From an uncultured Acidobacteriia bacterium (lineage in GTDB: Bacteria; Acidobacteriota; Terriglobia; Bryobacterales; Bryobacteraceae), in contig CAIKAS010000012.1 in assembly GCA_903825445.1 (NCBI GenBank), positions 1-43,134 of the forward strand: 43,134 nucleotides of DNA, in the 5' to 3' direction. This document shows, piece after piece, positions 4,682 to 12,708 of this stretch. Both the position numbers and the translations under genes were made by a program. The notes below the pieces were generated by a model. The model worked only from the letters and a program-made list of their open reading frames with translations, did not search any database and was not told where the DNA came from. Numbering within the stretch: the first letter of the stretch is position 1; each line of letters begins with the position of its first letter.

Positions 4682-6331
4682 ATGGCTGAACCCAATCTGC
4701 ATTCCGTAGCCTTCCCCACCCTCGACGATGCGCAGATCGCGCAAGTGTCGGATTGTATCCAGGTCGCACCCAAGCACTTCCCGGATGGGGAGCACATTAT
4801 CTCGGTCGGTGAGCGTTCGATCAATTTCTTCATCGTAAAGTCGGGGGCAGTCGATATCATCGATTCTTCCGGCGACGAACCGAAGGTACTCGCCACTCAT
4901 GGCCCGGGCCAGTTCACCGGCGACATCTCGCACCTCACGGGTATGCCGGCCATATTTACCGCAATCGCCCGGGGTGACTGCGAACTTTATGAGATCTCGC
5001 AGGAGGCACTTCGCCGGGTCCTGAATCAGTGCCCCACCCTAAGCGATATCATTCTCCAGGCATTCATCGCGCGACGTCAGCTTGTCCGCGAGTCACCGAG
5101 TTTCACGGGTCTCCGCGTGATCGGATCGCGATACTCTCCCGACACCTTTCGGGTTCGCGATTTCCTTGCCCGAAACCGCGTGCTCTTCACATGGGTCGAT
5201 CTGGAAACCGATCCGCAGGTCGACCAATTGCTGAAGGAATTCGGCGTCACCGAGGCCGACACACCGGTAGTCGCCTGCTCGCACATGTTACTGCTGCGAA
5301 ATCCGTCCAACCAGGAACTCGCCGACCGGGTCGGCGTCCATCAGCCTCTGACGAGCACCGTATACGACCTGCTCGTGGTGGGCGCTGGACCAGCCGGACT
5401 GGGCGCGGCCGTCTATGGCGCGTCGGAGGGTCTGTGCACGGCGGTGCTCGAATCCCTGGCGCCGGGTGGCCAGGCGGGCAGCAGCATGCGGATCGAAAAC
5501 TACCTGGGCTTCCCTACCGGCCTCACTGGAGCTGAACTGACTGATCGCGCCACCCTGCAGGCCAACAAATTTGGCGCCCACTTATCGATACCGACGCCTG
5601 CCACCCGCATGACATTTGAAAACGGCTACACGACCGTCGAACTGGATGGCGGCGAACCGATTACGACCAAATGCCTTTTGATTGCCACCGGAGCGCAGTA
5701 CCGCAAGCTGGATGCGGAGGGATGTGAGCGCTTCGAGGGGACCGGGGTTTACTACGCCGCCACTCCCGCCGAAGGGCGCCTCTGTCGCGGCTGCGATGTC
5801 CTGGTGGTGGGAGGAGGGAATTCGGCGGGGCAGGCCGCCGTATTCCTTTCAGGGCAGGCGCGCAAGGTGTTGCTCCTGATTCGCGGCGACGATCTGAACA
5901 AGAATATGTCGAGCTACCTGGTCAAGCGTATCGGGCAGACCGCCAACATTGAATTACTGTGCAACACTACGGTCCGGCGTTTGGAGGGCAACGGTCATCT
6001 CCAGGCGGCGGAAATAGTCGACGGCAAGACCAGGGAGAGCCGGAGAATTGAGACCCCTGCCGTGTTCAGTTTCATCGGGGCCACTCCCCGCACGGACTGG
6101 CTCCCGGCGGAAATTGAACGGGACGCCAAAGGCTTCGTCCGCACCGGCGCGGCTCTCGCGGAGTCTCCTTACTGGACGGCTGCCCGTGCGCCGTTTCTGC
6201 TCGAAACCAGCCGACCAGGTGTATTCGCGGCGGGCGACGTGCGCGCCGGATCGTCGAAGCGGGTTGCGGCGGCCGTTGGCGAAGGCGCCATGTCGGTGCA
6301 GTTCGTGCACGAATATCTTCGACAGATGTAA
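4682..6331 (+). CDS. Three-domain FAD oxidoreductase: cNMP-binding-like, thioredoxin-like, thioredoxin-reductase-like
   Basis: The 549 residues split into a cyclic-nucleotide-binding-like fold (about 15-130), a thioredoxin/glutaredoxin-like fold (about 142-215) and a thioredoxin-reductase fold. The last has FAD motif GAGPAG at 234-239, NAD(P)H motif GGGNSA at 377-382 and an AAGDV FAD motif near the C-terminus. The CATC redox site of true thioredoxin reductase is replaced by AATP at 359-362; a CRGC follows at 368-371. The cNMP phosphate cassette reads TGDISHLTGMPAIFT and lacks the usual Arg, so cyclic nucleotide binding is doubtful. The electron acceptor is unknown. The gene converges on the ergothioneine operon, ending 38 bases from egtD. 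Confidence 0.9.
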   Translation: MAEPNLHSVAFPTLDDAQIAQVSDCIQVAPKHFPDGEHIISVGERSINFFIVKSGAVDIIDSSGDEPKVLATHGPGQFTGDISHLTGMPAIFTAIARGDCELYEISQEALRRVLNQCPTLSDIILQAFIARRQLVRESPSFTGLRVIGSRYSPDTFRVRDFLARNRVLFTWVDLETDPQVDQLLKEFGVTEADTPVVACSHMLLLRNPSNQELADRVGVHQPLTSTVYDLLVVGAGPAGLGAAVYGASEGLCTAVLESLAPGGQAGSSMRIENYLGFPTGLTGAELTDRATLQANKFGAHLSIPTPATRMTFENGYTTVELDGGEPITTKCLLIATGAQYRKLDAEGCERFEGTGVYYAATPAEGRLCRGCDVLVVGGGNSAGQAAVFLSGQARKVLLLIRGDDLNKNMSSYLVKRIGQTANIELLCNTTVRRLEGNGHLQAAEIVDGKTRESRRIETPAVFSFIGATPRTDWLPAEIERDAKGFVRTGAALAESPYWTAARAPFLLETSRPGVFAAGDVRAGSSKRVAAAVGEGAMSVQFVHEYLRQM

Positions 6332-6369: not shown

Positions 6370-7341
6370 TTAATGTGCGAGTAACAGGGTCTCGGCAAAC
6401 GGCCACTCTTCGTCTGTCCACTGTGCTTCTACCCGGAAACCGGACGAGACCGCCAGTTCGCCGATCGCCTCATGCGTGTACTTATGGCAACTCTCTGTCC
6501 AGATCGTTTCACCCTCCGCGAAGGTAACGGAAAACTCTTGGTGGCGAAACATTACAACCTGTCTCCGCTTCGAACGAATATGCATCTCGATACTGCCGGT
6601 CGCTTCATTTAACACGGCCACATGTTCAAACTGACGCAGATCGAAATCGCCGCCGAGTTCGCGGTTGATCCTGACCAGCAGATTCAGATTGAACGCCGAC
6701 GTAACTCCCAGCGGATCGTCATACGCCTGAAGCAGCTGATCGAGCGGTTTCATCAGATCGGTTCCAAGCAGCAGGGAATCGCCCGGTAACAGAAAGCTTC
6801 GCACCTGACGCAGGAAGCGCGCATCCGCCCCCGAATCGAAATTGCCAATGGCGCTGCCCAGGAACAGGACCAGCAGATGCGCGCCGGCGGGCCGCAGGGC
6901 AGCCACTTCACGCAAGCCATCCAGATATTCACGCTCAACACCGACGATGCTGACATGTTCGATGTCGCGCAGTTCGGATTCGCAGGATTCGAGCGCGGTT
7001 CGCGAAATCTCAATCGGATAGTACGAGAGCGGCTCCCTTTCACAGAGAGCGCTGAGTATCCAGCGGGTCTTTCGTCCGCTTCCGCTGCCGAGTTCGGATA
7101 CCAGCGCAGGCGTCGGAACGTGCCGCACGATTTCCCGCGAGTATCGGCTGAGGATTCGCTCGTCGGCGCGAGTCAGACCATATTCGGGAAGAAGGCTGAT
7201 CGCTTCAAACAGCGTGGATCCCAACGCGTCATACAGGTACTTGGAGGGAAGGGTCTTTTGCCCGGGCCGACTAAGACCTGCGCGTATTTCAGATGCAAAA
7301 AGCGCGGTGCAGAGGGTCGTCGGATGTTCCGATGTGGTCAT
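6370..7341 (-). CDS. egtD: L-histidine N(alpha)-methyltransferase (ergothioneine biosynthesis)
   Basis: EgtD transfers three methyl groups from S-adenosylmethionine to the alpha-amino group of histidine, giving hercynine, in the cytosol. The 323-residue length is normal. Family blocks in order are YDALGSTLFEAI near residue 37, the SAM motif ELGSGSGRKT near 83, FLGSAIGNF near 159, and a run with DDPLGVTSAFNLNLL and INRELGGDFD near 208-232. SIEMHIRSK and ESCHKYT follow near the C-terminus. It is the last gene of the run, 7 bases after egtB. There is no good ribosome site, so it is probably translated by coupling with egtB. The pairing with egtB makes the assignment firm. Confidence 0.95.
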   Translation of the reverse strand: MTTSEHPTTLCTALFASEIRAGLSRPGQKTLPSKYLYDALGSTLFEAISLLPEYGLTRADERILSRYSREIVRHVPTPALVSELGSGSGRKTRWILSALCEREPLSYYPIEISRTALESCESELRDIEHVSIVGVEREYLDGLREVAALRPAGAHLLVLFLGSAIGNFDSGADARFLRQVRSFLLPGDSLLLGTDLMKPLDQLLQAYDDPLGVTSAFNLNLLVRINRELGGDFDLRQFEHVAVLNEATGSIEMHIRSKRRQVVMFRHQEFSVTFAEGETIWTESCHKYTHEAIGELAVSSGFRVEAQWTDEEWPFAETLLLAH

Positions 7342-7348
7342 GGTTGGT

Positions 7349-8611
7349 CTAAGCCCTGGTCACGCATCTGAATCCGGAATAGACGTACTGGTAGTGCGGC
7401 TGAAACCAGTTACGGAAACTCGGCCGCAACATGCACGGCGCGGTCCGGACACTGCCGCCTTTCAGAACATAATGCCGGCCATCGAAAAACGGCTCCGAAT
7501 ATCCGGGGTAGCACGGGAAGGGCCGGAATCCCGGAAACGGCGCGAACTCAGACGATGTCCACTCCCATCCATTCGCGATCATTCCGGTCACGCCGAACGG
7601 GCTGGAACTTGCCTGCGCGCAGTTGACCGGAGTGGGGTCCCAGGTTAGTGGATTGTGATGACTCGCGGTAGTCGCGGAATCTCCATAGGCGGCCCGCTGC
7701 CACTCTGCTTCCGTGGGGAGCGACTGACCTGCCCAGCGCGCGTAGGCCCTGGCTTCCGCATGGCTGACATAGACTGGCCATTCGGGCGGAAGAGGTAACT
7801 CATCGAACATCGAACGATATGACCAGGCATTTCCGCGGCGAATCCAGAACGCCGGATGGGAGATTTTATTTACAGTTCGCCAAGCCCGGTCGTCGGGCAT
7901 CCACAGTGCGTCGTTAAAGTAGCCACCAGCTTCGAGGAAGCGCAGAAATTCTCCATTGGTGATCTTGTACCTGTCTATCGTGAACTCTGGCACGTGGACC
8001 ACGTGCTCATCGAACTCGTTGTCCCAACCGAAAGCGGGGGAATCACGGCGTAGCCCCAGAACCGCTTCACCAGCCGGGATTTTTATACTATCGGGGAGAA
8101 ACGCCCCGCTCTGAGGTAACGCCCGCGCACCCCTGCTTCGTTTGCTCACGAATGGCATCTGGTGGAGCATGTACGCGAGCGTTTCCGCGTGCATCAAGCG
8201 GTGCTCGATCGCGACATTGAGCAACTCGGCGTCGCGATGCCCCAGGTGCGTGATCACTTCGTCCAACTGCTCTCGCACACGGTCCCGATAGTCATGAACG
8301 ATCTGAAGTCGCGGCCAGTCGTCCGGGCTATCCGTTGGTAAGCCGCCACCGACCGGATCGATACCGAATGCGAACAGCCGATCCAACTCAGCGTGCGTGC
8401 CACCGCCCTCGCCATGAGCTCCCAGCAGATTCCAATCGAACGCCTCCAGATGTCCGATATAGAAGACGATGCGATGCCGTTCGGGAATCGGCCGATCGTA
8501 CATTGCTTCGGGCCGGACCTCATGGAAGATCGCATCAGTCTCTTGTCGCGCTGACAGCAAACGCGAAATAAGCACGTCATGACCAGCGCCGACGGCACTC
8601 AGGGCAGTCAT
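7349..8611 (-). CDS. egtB: Ergothioneine sulfoxide synthase (EgtB-type iron enzyme)
   Basis: EgtB is a non-heme iron enzyme that joins a cysteine-type thiol to the imidazole ring of hercynine with oxygen. The N-terminal DinB-like domain supplies three iron ligands. His54 is in GHLEAFDW, and His137 and His141 are in EHRLMHAE; these match the three-His spacing of mycobacterial EgtB (51, 134, 138). The C-terminal half is a formylglycine-generating-enzyme (sulfatase-modifying) fold with PTEAEWQRAAYG, NGWEWT and YSGFRCV. The length of 420 residues is normal. The start ATG overlaps the stop of the upstream flavoprotein gene (ATGA at 8608-8611). No gamma-glutamylcysteine ligase, EgtC or EgtE gene is in the window, so the thiol donor could be cysteine itself. 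Confidence 0.93.
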   Translation of the reverse strand: MTALSAVGAGHDVLISRLLSARQETDAIFHEVRPEAMYDRPIPERHRIVFYIGHLEAFDWNLLGAHGEGGGTHAELDRLFAFGIDPVGGGLPTDSPDDWPRLQIVHDYRDRVREQLDEVITHLGHRDAELLNVAIEHRLMHAETLAYMLHQMPFVSKRSRGARALPQSGAFLPDSIKIPAGEAVLGLRRDSPAFGWDNEFDEHVVHVPEFTIDRYKITNGEFLRFLEAGGYFNDALWMPDDRAWRTVNKISHPAFWIRRGNAWSYRSMFDELPLPPEWPVYVSHAEARAYARWAGQSLPTEAEWQRAAYGDSATTASHHNPLTWDPTPVNCAQASSSPFGVTGMIANGWEWTSSEFAPFPGFRPFPCYPGYSEPFFDGRHYVLKGGSVRTAPCMLRPSFRNWFQPHYQYVYSGFRCVTRA

Positions 8612-10014
8612 ATCGGTTTCCCCAGCGGCTCAAGATCTCCCAACACAGTCGGGATGAGTTCCGACACCGTGGGGTGAATGTTCACCGATCTTTGCAGGAC
8701 GGTATACGGGACCTTCGCATACATGACGTCCAGAATGCAATGGATTGCCTCATCGCCCTCCGTACCCAGAATCGCCGCTCCCAGGATTTGCTTTGTCTCC
8801 GCGTCCACGAGGATCTTGATGAAGCCCTGCGTCTCGCCTTTCTCTGCCGCCCGACCTACCCGCGTCATCAGACGTCTGCCAATCAGTGCCTGCCTCCCCG
8901 AGGCCACGACCTGCGTTTCCGTCAATCCCGCACGTCCCAGTGGTGGATCCGTATAGAGCGCGTAGGCCGTTATCCGGTCGGTAACGCGCCTCGGATCGTT
9001 ATCGAGGAGATTCGCCGCCACAATTTCAAAATCGTTATAGGAAGTATGGGTGAACGCGCCCCGCCCGTTGCAGTCTCCGAGTGCCCAAACGTTCGGCGCG
9101 GTGCTTCTCAACTCGTCGTCGACCTGGATGTACCCGTGTTCATTCATTCGGATGCCGGCATTCTCCAACCCGAGGTCGTCCGTGTTGGGGCGTCGGCCCG
9201 TTGCGACCAGCAGGTGCGACCCCTGAATATTTCCGCTGCTCGTCCGCACTTCAACGCCCTCGCTTATGTTCACGATGCCGGTAATATCGCTGTTAAGACG
9301 TATCGCGATTTCCTCTTTTTCCAGAATCTGCCGCACCGTGTCCGATACATCGGGATCCTCTGTCCCTATGAGCCTCGGCCCGCGTTCAAAAACCGTGACC
9401 TGACTGCCAAACCGCCGGTACATTTGCGCGAACTCCAGCGCGATGAAGCTTCCGCCAATGATCACCAGATGCGGCGGCACGAAGTCGAGATTCATCATCG
9501 ACGAATTTGTAAGGTAATTGACATCATGCAAGCCGGCAATGCCCGGAACCGTAGCGCGCGCGCCGACATTGATGAAAATCCTGTCCGCGGTCAGCGTCTC
9601 ATCCCCGACGCGAATTTCCCGATCCGACAGGAATTTCGCCTGCGCTTGATAGACGGTACAGTTCGGCGTGTTTCTTAGCCATTTCTCCACGCCAGTTTCC
9701 GAACGACCGGCGATTTCATCTTTGCGCGCCTTCACGCGCTTCATGTCGACGGTGATAGGGCCAGCGATTTCAACGCCAAAGTCACCCGCTCGGCGAGCCA
9801 TGTGGGCAACACGCGCACTGGCGACCAGTGCCTTGGTCGGAATGCAGCCGGTGTTTACGCAGGTGCCTCCAAAACGGTTCCGCTCGATGACAGCGACCCG
9901 CTGACCCGCTTGCGCCAGGCGAACGGCGAGCGAAGGCCCCGCCTGTCCTGTCCCGATGATGATGGCATCGTAGTTGTCGTGACGCGTCGCGTCACTATAG
10001 GATTGTTCCGCCAT
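8608..10014 (-). CDS. Mercuric-reductase-like pyridine nucleotide-disulfide oxidoreductase
   Basis: This 468-residue flavoprotein has the FAD site GTGQAG (21-26), the redox-active pair Cys52/Cys57 in GGTCVNTGC, a second Rossmann motif GGSFIALEFA, an ALGDC FAD motif, and the C-terminal NIHPTVSEL that supplies the active-site His-Glu of the neighbouring subunit. It therefore looks catalytically complete as a dithiol/disulfide flavoenzyme. It lacks both the N-terminal metal-binding domain and the C-terminal Cys pair of real mercuric reductase, so mercury is an unlikely substrate. Its stop overlaps the egtB start, and it follows the transporter lipoprotein gene by 9 bases. A role in redox cycling of ergothioneine or a related thiol is inference from position only. 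Confidence 0.9.
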   Translation of the reverse strand: MAEQSYSDATRHDNYDAIIIGTGQAGPSLAVRLAQAGQRVAVIERNRFGGTCVNTGCIPTKALVASARVAHMARRAGDFGVEIAGPITVDMKRVKARKDEIAGRSETGVEKWLRNTPNCTVYQAQAKFLSDREIRVGDETLTADRIFINVGARATVPGIAGLHDVNYLTNSSMMNLDFVPPHLVIIGGSFIALEFAQMYRRFGSQVTVFERGPRLIGTEDPDVSDTVRQILEKEEIAIRLNSDITGIVNISEGVEVRTSSGNIQGSHLLVATGRRPNTDDLGLENAGIRMNEHGYIQVDDELRSTAPNVWALGDCNGRGAFTHTSYNDFEIVAANLLDNDPRRVTDRITAYALYTDPPLGRAGLTETQVVASGRQALIGRRLMTRVGRAAEKGETQGFIKILVDAETKQILGAAILGTEGDEAIHCILDVMYAKVPYTVLQRSVNIHPTVSELIPTVLGDLEPLGKPI

Positions 10015-10023
10015 ATTTACCGA

Positions 10024-10896
10024 TTACTTCAGTTCTTTCAGAAAATCGCGCGCAACTTCCCCCGCGGGCTTATGCTCCACGTCCACCAGTTCGTTCATGC
10101 GTCGCATCGACGCGTCGGAAATACGACCCGAAAGTTCTGTCAGGGCTTCCCTCAGCCGCGGATATCGCGTTAGCGTATCGGCGCGAACAGCAATGGCGCA
10201 CTCATACGGCGGGAAATAATGCAGGTCATCCTCGAGGACCGTGAACTCCGGGTGCGCCAGCATCCCGTCTGTAGCATTTGCCGCAGCCATTTCGACTTTC
10301 TGCGACAGCAGTGCGGGATAGAGTAATCCGAGGTCCATAGCCACCGGGTCTCCGTCCACGCGCAAGCCATAAGTTTTCACCAGTCCCCGTAGGCCGTCGG
10401 GCCTCTGTGTAAATTCGTACCCAACTCCCAGGCGCCAGGCTTCACGACGCCGGGCCGCATCGCTGAGGCTCTTCAAATGTTGGTCCCTGGCAGTACGGGA
10501 TCGCACGACCATAGCGAAACTATCGTTGAAGCCCAGGGGCGGAAGCCACTCGATACCCCACGCGCTGTAGCTCTGGTGGACTATGCCAAATGCGGTTTTT
10601 GCATCCCTGACTACGGTCTGTTTCAAGATGGCAGTCAGCGCAGTTCCCGTGTACTCGGGATAGAGATCGATAGACCCACCACGCAGCGCTTCGTGAGCCA
10701 GCAGGGTTCCTCCCAAGTCGAGCTTCCGATCGACTTCGACTCCCAGACGCCGTTCAATTTGCTGCGAAATGATTTCGCCGAGCACTACCTGCTCTGTGAA
10801 ATTCTTGGATCCCACGACAATACGCGGCTTGGACGAGCACGCCACCGTAAACATGGCGAGCAGGATTATTAATAGGAGAACCGGCGTTCGACCCAT
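10024..10896 (-). CDS. ABC transporter substrate-binding lipoprotein, OpuC/ProX (EgtU-like) type
   Basis: The 290-residue protein starts with a lipoprotein signal ending in TVAC (Cys20), so it is membrane-anchored outside the cytosol. It then shows the quaternary-amine binding-protein hallmarks GSKNFTEQ, LGGTLLAHEAL and DLYPEYTGTAL. This family binds glycine betaine, choline and related compounds. EgtU of Helicobacter pylori and Streptococcus pneumoniae, which binds ergothioneine, belongs to the same fold group and was earlier annotated as OpuC-like. Given the egtB/egtD neighbours, ergothioneine or hercynine (both trimethylated histidines) is a reasonable ligand guess. Here the binding protein is separate from the permease. 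It overlaps the permease gene by 28 bases. Confidence 0.88.
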   Translation of the reverse strand: MGRTPVLLLIILLAMFTVACSSKPRIVVGSKNFTEQVVLGEIISQQIERRLGVEVDRKLDLGGTLLAHEALRGGSIDLYPEYTGTALTAILKQTVVRDAKTAFGIVHQSYSAWGIEWLPPLGFNDSFAMVVRSRTARDQHLKSLSDAARRREAWRLGVGYEFTQRPDGLRGLVKTYGLRVDGDPVAMDLGLLYPALLSQKVEMAAANATDGMLAHPEFTVLEDDLHYFPPYECAIAVRADTLTRYPRLREALTELSGRISDASMRRMNELVDVEHKPAGEVARDFLKELK

Positions 10897-11474
10897 TCGA
10901 GAACCTCGTCTGCGGTAATTGCCATGATGGCGGCCGGCACGGCGCCAGCCAGAATTGTTCTCGAATCGGCCATCGCAATACCGCGAAAAACAAATGTGCC
11001 GAGGCCCCCTCCGCCGATCGCCGCCGCGATTGTAGCTGTCCCGATAGTTGTGACCGTGGCGATTCGAACGCCTGCCAGAATGGTCGGCAGCGCGAGTGGC
11101 AGCTCCACATCCCGAAGAATTTGGCTGTCCGTCATACCCATCGCGACCGCCGATTCCCGCACAGTGGAATCCACACCCGTGATCCCAACTACCGTGTTTC
11201 GAAGAATCGGAAGCAGTGCGTATAGGATCAGTGCCAGCACTGCTGTCTGCTTGCCGACGCCCCCGATAAACGGAAGGGGCAGCAGGAAACCAAAGAGCGC
11301 CAGGCTGGGTATGGTCTGCACGATGTTGACTAGGCCGAGCGTCCAGCGCCGCGCACGTGCATGCCGTGTCAGGAAGATCGCGGAAGGGGCCGCAATAGCC
11401 GTCGCCGCGACCACCGCAATGGCGACCAGAATCAAGTGCTCGGCGGACAATCTGACGATCTCATTGAATAGCAT
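10869..11474 (-). CDS. ABC transporter permease, OpuC/ProW type
   Basis: This 201-residue inner-membrane protein has about five to six hydrophobic segments. The central loop EVELPLALPTILAGVR-like block (residues DVELPLALPTILAGVR) is the coupling-loop signature of betaine-type permeases, followed by TIGTATIAAAIGGGGLGTF. I placed the start at ATG 11474 because the upstream in-frame extension to 11597 is Arg-rich and unlike a permease. This start overlaps the ATPase stop by 14 bases, suggesting translational coupling. It forms the channel for the adjacent binding protein and ATPase. Unlike EgtU, no binding domain is fused to it. Confidence 0.88.
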   Translation of the reverse strand: MLFNEIVRLSAEHLILVAIAVVAATAIAAPSAIFLTRHARARRWTLGLVNIVQTIPSLALFGFLLPLPFIGGVGKQTAVLALILYALLPILRNTVVGITGVDSTVRESAVAMGMTDSQILRDVELPLALPTILAGVRIATVTTIGTATIAAAIGGGGLGTFVFRGIAMADSRTILAGAVPAAIMAITADEVLEWVERRFSY

Positions 11475-12222
11475 GCGATTTGCCGAAAGGTTCCTCACGC
11501 AGGGTGGCAAGGAACGCACGCGCTTCCTGCGAATGCGCCGCCGGGAACTCATCCGCGAGCGCCACCAACTCCAGCCGGCCGTCTTTGAGCAACGCAATAC
11601 GCGTGCCCAGCATCAATGCCTCGCGAATGTCGTGAGTCACGAACAGCGCGGTCTTACCGAAAGCCTGAGTCAAGCGCGCGAAATGCTGCTGCATCTCAAA
11701 ACGCGTCACGGGGTCCAGCGCTGCGAAAGGCTCATCGAGTAAGAGCAACGGAGGATCCGCCGCCAGAGCCCGCGCAATCCCAACTCTCTGCTTCTCACCG
11801 CCGGAAAGTTGCCGGGGATACCGCGCGGCGTATACGCTCGGCTGCAAGCCAACAGCATCGAGCAACTCCGCTACGCGTGCACGGATTCGGTCTTCCCCCC
11901 AGCCTTCCAGTTTCGGCACAAGCCCGATATTCTGTGCCACGGTCGCGTGGGGGAACAGCCCGCCTTCCTGAATCACATAACCGATGCGGCGGCGCAGCCG
12001 GAAACGATCCTGATCCACGACCGGCTGGCCTGTGAACAACACTTCGCCGTCGGAGGGTTCCAGCAGGCGGTTCACCATTCTGAGCAGCGTTGTCTTTCCC
12101 GAACCGCTTCGGCCCAACAAGACCACGGTTTCGTGCTGTTCGATACTGAGATCGATTCCGCGCAAAATCTCGCGGCCCCCGACCTGGTAAGTCACGCCTC
12201 GAAACTCAACCAGAGCCGCCAT
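11461..12222 (-). CDS. ABC transporter ATP-binding protein, OpuC/ProV type without CBS domains
   Basis: The 253 residues hold a complete ATPase. Walker A GRSGSGKTT is at 37-45, the Q-loop is near 85, the signature LSGGEKQRVGIA starts at 139, Walker B LLLLDE is at 159-164 and the switch His197 is in VTHD. It energises import by the neighbouring permease and binding protein. Typical OpuCA/ProV proteins carry a C-terminal tandem CBS module that gates activity by ionic strength; this one ends about 40 residues after the ATPase core and has none. That argues against simple osmoregulation. The ATG follows the stop codon of the upstream zinc-finger gene directly. Confidence 0.9.
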   Translation of the reverse strand: MAALVEFRGVTYQVGGREILRGIDLSIEQHETVVLLGRSGSGKTTLLRMVNRLLEPSDGEVLFTGQPVVDQDRFRLRRRIGYVIQEGGLFPHATVAQNIGLVPKLEGWGEDRIRARVAELLDAVGLQPSVYAARYPRQLSGGEKQRVGIARALAADPPLLLLDEPFAALDPVTRFEMQQHFARLTQAFGKTALFVTHDIREALMLGTRIALLKDGRLELVALADEFPAAHSQEARAFLATLREEPFGKSHAIQ

Positions 12223-12495
12223 TCAGGCGAAATCCAGCTCCACTTCGTCGACAAAACACCAGCCCCAGTCCTCGCCACGCTCGAGTGAGCGCATGATCGG
12301 ATGTTTGGTCTTATGAAAGTGCCTGGATGCGTGTTTATTTATTGAAGAGTCGCAGCATCCCACATGCCCGCAGATCATGCAGAGCCGGAGATGAACCCAC
12401 TGATCGCCGGTTTTCAGGCACTCTTCGCAGCCGTTCGTGTGTGGCTTGACGTCTTGAATCTGATCGAGATGGGTGCATTCGTTCATTGCAGACAT
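12223..12495 (-). CDS. UBP-type zinc finger protein
   Basis: This small protein (about 90 residues from the chosen start) is almost entirely a UBP zinc finger. It has CTHLDQI near the N-terminus, then CEEC, CMICGHVGCCDSS, NKHASRHFHKTKHP and WGWCFVDE. All Cys and His ligand positions expected of the family are visible. In eukaryotes the fold binds the ubiquitin C-terminus; in bacteria the role is not settled. In some bacterial genomes, as I recall, it occurs near or fused to flavin oxidoreductases with a cNMP-binding-like domain, and one such enzyme lies at the other end of this locus. The ORF could start at 12558, 12495 or 12486; none has a strong ribosome site. Its stop abuts the ATPase start, so it is probably the first gene of the operon. 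Confidence 0.85.
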   Translation of the reverse strand: MSAMNECTHLDQIQDVKPHTNGCEECLKTGDQWVHLRLCMICGHVGCCDSSINKHASRHFHKTKHPIMRSLERGEDWGWCFVDEVELDFA

Positions 12496-12631
12496 TCCGT
12501 TTCGAGTGGCATACAAGCCGATGCTCGGATCGAGCCTGTTTACTAACTTTCCGATCATAACGCAAAACGCGTTTACGCGGAATCGGCGGCGGATCGATGA
12601 AATGGTCTAGAATCAAAAGAGCAGCAATTGT

Positions 12632-12708
12632 CGGGGCGTAGCGCAGCCTGGTAGCGCACCTGCCTTGGGCGCAGGGGGTCGTGAGTTCGAATCTCGCCGC
12701 CCCGACCA
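12632..12708 (+). tRNA. tRNA-Pro(UGG)
   Basis: A full cloverleaf can be folded by eye. The acceptor CGGGGCG pairs with CGCCCCG, the D stem is GCGC/GCGC, and the anticodon stem CCTGC/GCAGG encloses loop CTTGGGC with anticodon TGG at 12666-12668. The variable loop is GGGTC. The T stem GTGAG/CTCGC has loop TTCGAAT. The discriminator is A, and CCA is encoded. Length is 77 nt. Confidence 0.97.

Follow-up and report, generated by a model that had tools for sequence, protein, structure and literature searches.

Do bacteria that synthesize ergothioneine also take it, or its precursor, back up from their surroundings? The question is raised by a run of seven open reading frames (ORFs) on the minus strand (positions 6370-12495) of contig CAIKAS010000012.1 (GCA_903825445.1), which originates from an uncultured Acidobacteriia bacterium of the family Bryobacteraceae. 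A stretch of 43,134 nt (positions 1-43,134 of this contig) was analyzed and is referred to below as the window. The run unites egtB- and egtD-type genes with those of a betaine-class ATP-binding cassette (ABC) importer, a disulfide reductase-type flavoprotein and a small UBP zinc finger protein. The bacterial ergothioneine importers presented in the openly licensed parts of the literature come from organisms that acquire this compound from a host. Related bacteria have joined the genes of synthesis and import repeatedly, which suggests that producers also take back ergothioneine or its precursor. On balance, we consider it probable, with modest confidence, that the run is an operon serving to make, recapture and keep reduced ergothioneine.

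The seven-gene run

The seven genes follow one another in the order given below, which is their order on the minus strand.

12223..12495, minus strand: small zf-UBP protein (PF02148, 51.7 bits); a longer start is possible, as the frame is open to an ATG at 12558
11461..12222, minus strand: ABC ATPase of the ProV/betaine class (PF00005, 127 bits; TIGR01186, 246.4 bits, below the cut-off of 326.6)
10869..11474 (with the ATG picked in the first-pass annotation), minus strand: permease, BPD_transp_1 (PF00528, 76.9 bits on 10869-11489)
10024..10896, minus strand: OpuAC-type substrate-binding lipoprotein, hereafter the substrate-binding protein (SBP) (PF04069, 184.6 bits)
8608..10014, minus strand: FAD-dependent disulfide reductase-type flavoprotein (NF004992, 762 bits, cut-off 629)
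7349..8611, minus strand: egtB-type sulfoxide synthase with DinB and FGE-sulfatase domains (PF12867, PF03781), whose closest solved relative is EgtB-IV
6370..7341, minus strand: egtD, predicted histidine N-alpha-trimethyltransferase yielding hercynine (PF10017, 305.7 bits; TIGR03438)

All seven families are named by Pfam and, with the exception of the zf-UBP protein, for which no NCBIfam match was obtained, also by NCBIfam. The zf-UBP and ATPase genes abut, the ATPase and permease genes overlap by 14 bases, and the permease and OpuAC genes by 28 bases; these are followed by a 9-base gap between the OpuAC and flavoprotein genes, a 4-base ATGA overlap between the flavoprotein gene and egtB, and a 7-base gap between egtB and egtD. 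On re-reading, the gene order and all six junctions reported in the first-pass annotation proved exact to the base. A search for the same gene order in relatives, proposed there, recovered the complete seven-gene order in a genome of the same genus (G009, locus L032), in which the convergent neighbour also comes next. Because this genome shares all seven genes in order together with the neighbour, we rejected a chimeric, chance or misassembled arrangement. Scans gave promoter-like and terminator-like sites at chance level (2 versus 2.8 expected and 4 versus 5.8 expected, respectively), and thus the single message predicted for the seven genes is deduced solely from their spacing.

Repeated union of the importer with egtB-egtD

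For the comparative analysis, 201 related genomes were used. The SBP was found in 131 of them, while EgtD matches were present in 134, of which 120 were counted as true EgtD: matches of about 72 bits or less were dropped, apart from a contig-edge fragment (G012) and a 62-bit match (G123), both located beside the SBP. The count of neighbouring genes within 15 kb included 130 of the 131 SBP genomes, one with a short, weak match (G063) being left out, and it revealed 51 genomes, out of the 103 encoding both, in which SBP and EgtD are separated by at most 15 kb (49 of 101 without G012 and G123). In 46 of the 103 the distance does not exceed 6 kb, versus approximately 0.25 genomes expected at random (kinship uncorrected); this and all further chance expectations were calculated for genes placed at random in 6.2 Mb, with kinship and split contigs disregarded. 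These counts support the earlier proposal that transport and synthesis form one module, and they are at odds with the observation that the first-pass annotation had named as contradicting it, i.e., conservation of egtB-egtD alone in all relatives. For the canonical SBP set (taken in list order down to an E-value of 9.8e-73 and supplemented manually with G120 and G128), both SBP and EgtD were found in 82 of the 201 genomes, EgtD only in 38, SBP only in 10 and neither in 71 (kinship uncorrected).

The two halves of the module occur in three layouts: egtB-egtD-ATPase-permease-SBP, ATPase-permease-SBP-egtB-egtD, and an arrangement with the halves on opposite strands. On a tree of 66 egt-adjacent SBPs (69 loci, from which three identical rows were dropped), these layouts need 8 changes, and at least 1, 4 and 4 for the respective layouts are demanded by branches with good support. 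It should be stressed that one row, L142 (genome G069, with an EgtB-like ORF and no EgtD), is misaligned and was nevertheless counted as egt-adjacent in both the SBP alignment and the tree, and that rows of low similarity in the 195-row SBP alignment are misaligned too and served only to indicate "another subfamily". Since the changes are forced on supported branches, the union of importer and egtB-egtD has been rebuilt several times, which is stronger evidence than one old operon inherited by descent. In genome G116 (L071, 7477-13574), a fused permease-SBP of another clade, of the Tyr type, stands before the flavoenzyme, egtB and egtD genes, and the flavoenzyme is 75% identical to that of the window. 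A distant importer of the same class was thus swapped in while the rest was kept, which is an argument for the importer having its role within the pathway. Taken together, the linkage in half of the informative genomes, the repeatedly changed layouts and this replacement indicate that importer and synthesis appear to be functionally tied, a conclusion well supported by comparative genomics.

A search beyond Acidobacteriota, likewise proposed earlier, extended the association to other phyla: EgtD is encoded near the importer in two cyanobacteria (L192, L234), a Gemmatimonadales metagenome-assembled genome (MAG; L214) and a Binatia MAG (L236), and all four EgtDs score above the EgtD cut-off. L192 comes from the cultured strain Nostoc paludosum FACHB-159, in which a fused importer adjoins egtB-egtD. 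The cultured acidobacteria Acidipila rosea (L205) and Edaphobacter lichenicola (L222) encode the importer, with neither egtB nor egtD in the 8 kb of sequence fetched around it. Among the best 80 of at least 590 loci, the closest organism-labelled one belongs to a Bryobacterales MAG (72% identity), and egtB or egtD was present in the fetched flanks of 18 of these 80, the four loci just named among them; this gives no estimate of frequency, because the best 80 are mostly from Acidobacteriota and overlap the 201 genomes.

The binding protein and its pocket

The SBP is the sole PF04069 match in the genome assembly (96% complete, 9.2% contamination). Its AlphaFold2 model (mean predicted local distance difference test score of 95.1) matches the structures of EgtU with bound ergothioneine, 8dp7 and 7txk, with template modelling (TM) scores of about 0.87-0.88. 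The pocket was mapped onto the residues of Streptococcus pneumoniae EgtU (SpEgtU; PMC9732360), with chain numbering derived by alignment. Six pocket residues of SpEgtU are kept in the window protein, namely K242 (K31), T275 (T64), T296 (T85), E375 (E161), R379 (R165) and Y443 (Y231), while eight are changed: I243 to N32, G244 to F33, T274 to G63, F293 to Y82, Y337 to F123, N339 to D125, Y341 to F127 and Y419 to N207. In the 78 SBPs compared, position 244 is invariably Phe and position 293 invariably Tyr, 68 carry Asn or Ser at position 419 and the other 10 Tyr or Phe, and equivalents of K242 and R379 are present in 78 and 77, respectively.

The residues contacting carboxylate and imidazole in SpEgtU (K242, T296, R379, E375) all have their counterparts in the window protein (K31, T85, R165, E161). 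This pattern does not discriminate between ligands, since the betaine binder AfProX has the equivalent Lys, Glu and Arg (read by eye). The engineered acetylcholine sensor 6uru carries Ile and Lys at the positions of Lys242 and Arg379 (by eye), and therefore the retention of Lys and Arg speaks, weakly, for a carboxylated ligand, the choline-type chains in this comparison being engineered ones alone. Helicobacter pylori EgtU (HpEgtU), solved with ergothioneine, likewise carries Tyr293 and lacks Gly244 (residues read by eye through L080). By its residues, the window SBP fails as a member of the SpEgtU type; as HpEgtU also lacks those residues, this result was not used to exclude ergothioneine, and the pocket residues would neither prove nor exclude it as the ligand.

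The synthesis genes

The EgtD protein narrowly exceeds the curated cut-off of TIGR03438 (291.2 versus 290.9 bits), matches the solved EgtD 4pim with 195 bits and carries the conserved E283 and N167, both invariant in 83 of 83 aligned rows. It is also worth mentioning that C285, two residues after E283, aligns with the Ser of the TEVSCKF motif in 4pim; this position is Ser in 58 and Cys in 25 of the 83 rows.

The sulfoxide synthase scores below the cut-offs of all three relevant curated NCBIfam families, i.e., EgtB (TIGR03440, 261.6 of 360 bits), OvoA (TIGR04344, 253.0 of 400) and SenA (NF041186, 248.9 of 420), and is approximately equally distant from them; the name egtB is therefore a family call combined with genomic context. 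The nearest solved structure, 8vih (242 bits), is named EgtB-IV, a term for which no match was found in the searched openly licensed literature. The protein has the DinB and FGE architecture with H54, H137 and H141, kept in 81, 82 and 82 of 82 rows, respectively, which we take to be the three-His iron site of the family. The genes egtA, egtC and egtE are not in the run, and none of the seven genes accounts for the C-S lyase step.

The flavoprotein

In the flavoprotein, the redox motif C52-x4-C57 and the C-terminal His447-Pro448 with Glu452, as expected of a disulfide reductase, are intact and present in 8 of 8 rows. Among the best 25 families listed, it passed the cut-off only of NF004992, named merely "FAD-containing oxidoreductase"; the nearest solved chain is 6kgy. 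Each of the cut-offs tested (mycothione, glutathione, mercuric and RclA) was missed, with 358 of 740 bits for RclA, 326 of 454 for MerA and 317 of 501 for mycothione reductase. The flavoprotein shares the Pyr_redox_2 and dimerisation architecture and the CxxxxC motif with RclA and with hypothiocyanous acid, mycothione and mercuric reductases, and differs from them in scoring below each curated cut-off.

Close relatives (E-values up to 1e-120) were identified in 50 of the 201 genomes, and 9 of the 46 genomes with both have the enzyme no farther than 6 kb from EgtD, versus 0.11 by chance (kinship uncorrected). One further case (G106) has the flavoenzyme near the importer, and in G186 a more distant relative (364 bits) is located beside egtD. 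In the same-genus genome G007, the UBP-ATPase-permease-SBP-egtB-egtD run lacks the flavoenzyme, which sits on another contig. The earlier assignment of this gene to the module is supported in part, by its position near EgtD, which exceeds the chance expectation, but the linked enzymes do not form a single clade (see below) and the run of G007 is without it. The flavoprotein is most readily viewed as a general disulfide reductase recruited repeatedly, and reduction of ergothioneine disulfide by it would be a guess in keeping with this view. The openly licensed literature on ergothioneine disulfide and a reductase yielded nothing beyond a nutrition review, and a PADLOC scan for defence genes gave no match for the flavoprotein or the UBP protein.

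The UBP zinc finger and a putative signalling module

Two features on the plus strand adjoin the run.

4682..6331, plus strand: convergent neighbour with a cyclic-nucleotide (cNMP)-binding domain and a thioredoxin reductase (TrxR)-like flavoprotein part (PF00027, PF07992)
12632-12708, plus strand: tRNA-Pro (TGG), a short distance upstream of the run

The candidate zinc-ligand Cys and His residues of the zf-UBP protein are kept in 5 of 5 rows, and the protein is present in 80 of the 201 genomes. It lies within 6 kb of a TrxR-like protein in 25 of the 60 genomes with both (two of these 25 have the arrangement of the window, with a distance of 5.8-5.9 kb), and near EgtD in 7 of 74, versus 0.18 by chance (kinship uncorrected). 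Among the fetched loci, a receiver-TrxR, a cNMP-binding kinase and UBP occur together in 6, and a cNMP-TrxR stands beside UBP in 8; in the window, the UBP and cNMP-TrxR parts flank the operon on either side. The first-pass annotation had placed the UBP zinc finger in one run with the ergothioneine genes. We rejected it as ergothioneine-specific in favour of a separate module comprising UBP, a TrxR-like flavoprotein and often a cNMP-binding kinase. In the genomes with UBP near EgtD several arrangements were observed: a UBP gene divergent from egtB (G054, G077), TrxR-UBP-ATPase-permease-SBP with convergent egtDB in a MAG labelled Nitrospirae (L176), and egtB-egtD-flavoenzyme followed by UBP and a kinase on the opposite strand (G186).

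The UBP module itself settles beside this importer. In two genomes without EgtD, G088 (L148, 2674-7861) and G120 (L154), the importer is in one run with a receiver-TrxR and a cNMP-binding histidine kinase; in a third, G072 (L143), it is accompanied by the kinase, and in locus L179 receiver-TrxR, kinase and importer are found together. The window's neighbour at 4682-6331 has AATP at the position where three solved thioredoxin reductases have CxxC, and a C-x-x-C at 368-371, a few residues past the usual site, which is present in 6 of 24 rows including that of the window (two are identical); it reaches 207 of the 343 bits required by TIGR01292. A protein of cNMP-binding and TrxR architecture is reported as a thioredoxin reductase (PMC6544261). 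No tie between a UBP zinc finger and cyclic-nucleotide or TrxR terms was found in the openly licensed literature.

Proposed function and alternative explanations

Judging from families and motifs, EgtD would trimethylate histidine to hercynine, and the EgtB-type enzyme would add sulfur from a cysteine donor. The ATPase, permease and lipoprotein are predicted to import a zwitterionic trimethylammonium carboxylate, most likely ergothioneine, either leaked from the cell or free in soil; this substrate is suggested by the gene association, by the SBP being the sole OpuAC protein of the genome and by the retained carboxylate ligands. With NAD(P)H, the flavoprotein probably reduces ergothioneine disulfide or a mixed disulfide, which is the weakest of the predicted enzymatic steps. 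The UBP protein and the convergent TrxR-like flavoprotein look like a redox or nucleotide signalling module beside the operon.

A number of observations weigh against this proposal. SBP and EgtD are more than 15 kb apart or on separate contigs in 52 of the 103 genomes with both. Some of these genomes still show the link, because egtB-egtD is followed by the ATPase and permease genes, with the SBP gene elsewhere in the genome (G080, locus L105; G093, L110), only the ATPase follows and the SBP gene is elsewhere (G102, L117), the contig ends after an ATPase and permease located behind egtB-egtD (G058), or the run is broken by contig ends (G104). Ten genomes have a canonical SBP without EgtD, of which four are less than 90% complete (G005, G101, G173, G198). 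No EgtE (C-S lyase, TIGR04343) was found over the cut-off in the assembly, the best match reaching 92.5 of 400 bits, and all 14 of the 14 control genomes also gave sub-cut-off matches to this model; no gene can therefore be assigned to the final step of ergothioneine synthesis. The SBP model resembles betaine, choline and ergothioneine binders about equally, and the best sequence and fold matches are acetylcholine, nicotine and cytisine sensors and betaine/choline binders as much as EgtU. G244 and F293, called determinants of ergothioneine by the authors of SpEgtU (PMC9732360), as well as Y337, are replaced (F33, Y82, F123). Of the SpEgtU cage (F293, N339, Y341, Y419, Y443), the window has Y82, D125, F127, N207 and Y231; the aromatic at 419 is thus lost, a residue that is aromatic in the visibly aligned solved chains, i.e., ProX, SpEgtU and HpEgtU, Lmo1422 and the acetylcholine sensor. 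The replacement importer of G116 is closest to AfProX. Finally, an egt-specific clade of flavoenzymes was unsupported, as linked and unlinked enzymes are mixed on a tree of 32 (8 changes, with about 120 of 500 shuffles as good), which included 20 of the 40 genomes in which the enzyme lies away from both EgtD and the importer.

It is unlikely, in our view, that the importer brings in hercynine, or another trimethylammonium histidine, as precursor for the EgtB-type enzyme instead of finished ergothioneine. The gene association would be the same, and the SpEgtU residues of the thione-sulfur contact and water cage are gone (I243 to N, T274 to G, G244 to F). As the binding domain SpEgtUC has a hercynine affinity about 10,000-fold below that for ergothioneine (PMC9732360), the loss of sulfur residues would fit a sulfur-free ligand; however, HpEgtU binds ergothioneine without all of those residues, and ten genomes have the importer without EgtD (no genome-wide EgtB search was made there). 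A further explanation, which we hold to be improbable, is an ordinary glycine betaine or osmolyte importer, serving osmoprotection or the supply of methyl groups for the three S-adenosylmethionine-dependent steps of EgtD, and placed beside egtB-egtD through co-regulation under stress. It agrees with the OpuAC/ProV family membership, with the two residues Tyr293 and Phe244 shared with AfProX, and with the sole OpuAC gene of the assembly, which may therefore be the cell's only such importer; the swap in G116 keeps this explanation alive too, the incoming importer being AfProX-like. Nevertheless, the strong, repeated tie to egtB-egtD would be unexpected for a general osmolyte importer, and Asn or Ser at the cage aromatic, as in 68 of the 78 SBPs, is unseen in the visibly aligned solved chains.

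We regard it as very improbable that, in place of ergothioneine, a divergent synthase (OvoA-like, SenA-like or new) yields another thiol or selenol of this kind derived from histidine, and that the importer serves that product. Such a product would be consistent with the synthase scoring below all three family cut-offs, with the missing EgtE and with the cyanobacterial synthase of L192, which is of the OvoA type by NCBIfam (591 bits, cut-off 400) even though it lies beside EgtD. Against it stand the adjoining EgtD, predicted to make hercynine, the EgtB-IV name of the nearest solved synthase structure, and the lack of a match to any selenium-pathway partner in a scan of the seven run genes and one neighbour. 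There is also some chance, somewhat short of even, that the flavoenzyme and UBP genes are passengers, inserted in particular lineages, and that only the link of importer and egtB-egtD is functional, which is compatible with the core of the make-and-recapture reading. The run of G007 lacks the flavoenzyme, linked flavoenzymes are scattered on their own tree, and among 100 mapped loci a close flavoenzyme was found in 5 and the UBP gene in 3; on the other hand, both genes occur near EgtD above the chance expectation (counts above), and in several arrangements, including that of the distant G186.

If the make-and-recapture reading is true, the union of importer and synthesis would make the production and recapture of ergothioneine one trait and provide a genetic handle on its turnover in soil; moreover, a candidate ergothioneine-disulfide reductase would be named, and an orphan bacterial UBP zinc-finger module would be connected with low-molecular-weight thiol physiology. 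Tentatively, and with rather less than even confidence, we further propose that the importer represents an undescribed class of ergothioneine/hercynine importers in Acidobacteriota and some cyanobacteria, with a cage rebuilt by Asn/Ser in place of the second-lobe aromatic, which would be a standing partner of synthesis, swapped at least once for a distant betaine-type importer, and wired to a redox-signalling module (UBP, cNMP-binding kinase and receiver- or cNMP-fused TrxR-like protein) common to producers and non-producers. Ergothioneine would then be a recycled, perhaps shared, soil thiol, beyond an internal antioxidant.

Comparison with known systems

Among the listed titles and abstract openings of the openly licensed literature and in passages of PMC11993508, PMC12689799, PMC10903977 and PMC11722985, no description of this operon was found; the 2022 Cell paper on EgtUV was outside this scope. 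The window importer resembles S. pneumoniae EgtU in combining an OpuAC-type SBP with a ProV-type ATPase (TM score of 0.88 to 7txk) and differs in having a separate permease and lipoprotein instead of a fused permease-SBP, as well as in being joined to synthesis genes, the terms "egtB" and "egtD" being absent from the main text of PMC9732360. H. pylori EgtU/EgtUV (8dp6, 8dp7), described as acting in uptake from the host (PMC11722985), shares the fold (TM scores of 0.84-0.87) and, as read by eye, Tyr293, Phe337, Lys242, Thr296, Arg379 and Tyr443; it has Phe419 where the window has Asn, Ser244 where the window has Phe, and Tyr341 where the window has Phe. OpuB, OpuC and AfProX share family and fold with the window SBP, and AfProX additionally Tyr at 293 and Phe at 244; AfProX has Tyr at 419, in contrast to Asn or Ser in the window group, whose importer is tied to egtB-egtD in genomes. 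The mycobacterial egtABCDE cluster likewise has egtB and egtD together, whereas the window run is without egtA, egtC and egtE; a passage on the mycobacterial cluster in PMC11993508 lists its five genes and no importer.

In 17 genomes, a family of ORFs of about 850 residues (L059, 12134-14689, and similar) was also observed at distances of up to 3.5 kb from OpuAC or egt genes, often next to a distant OpuAC subfamily. The genes returned by shared-neighbour clustering were mostly taken to belong with a different, distant OpuAC subfamily.

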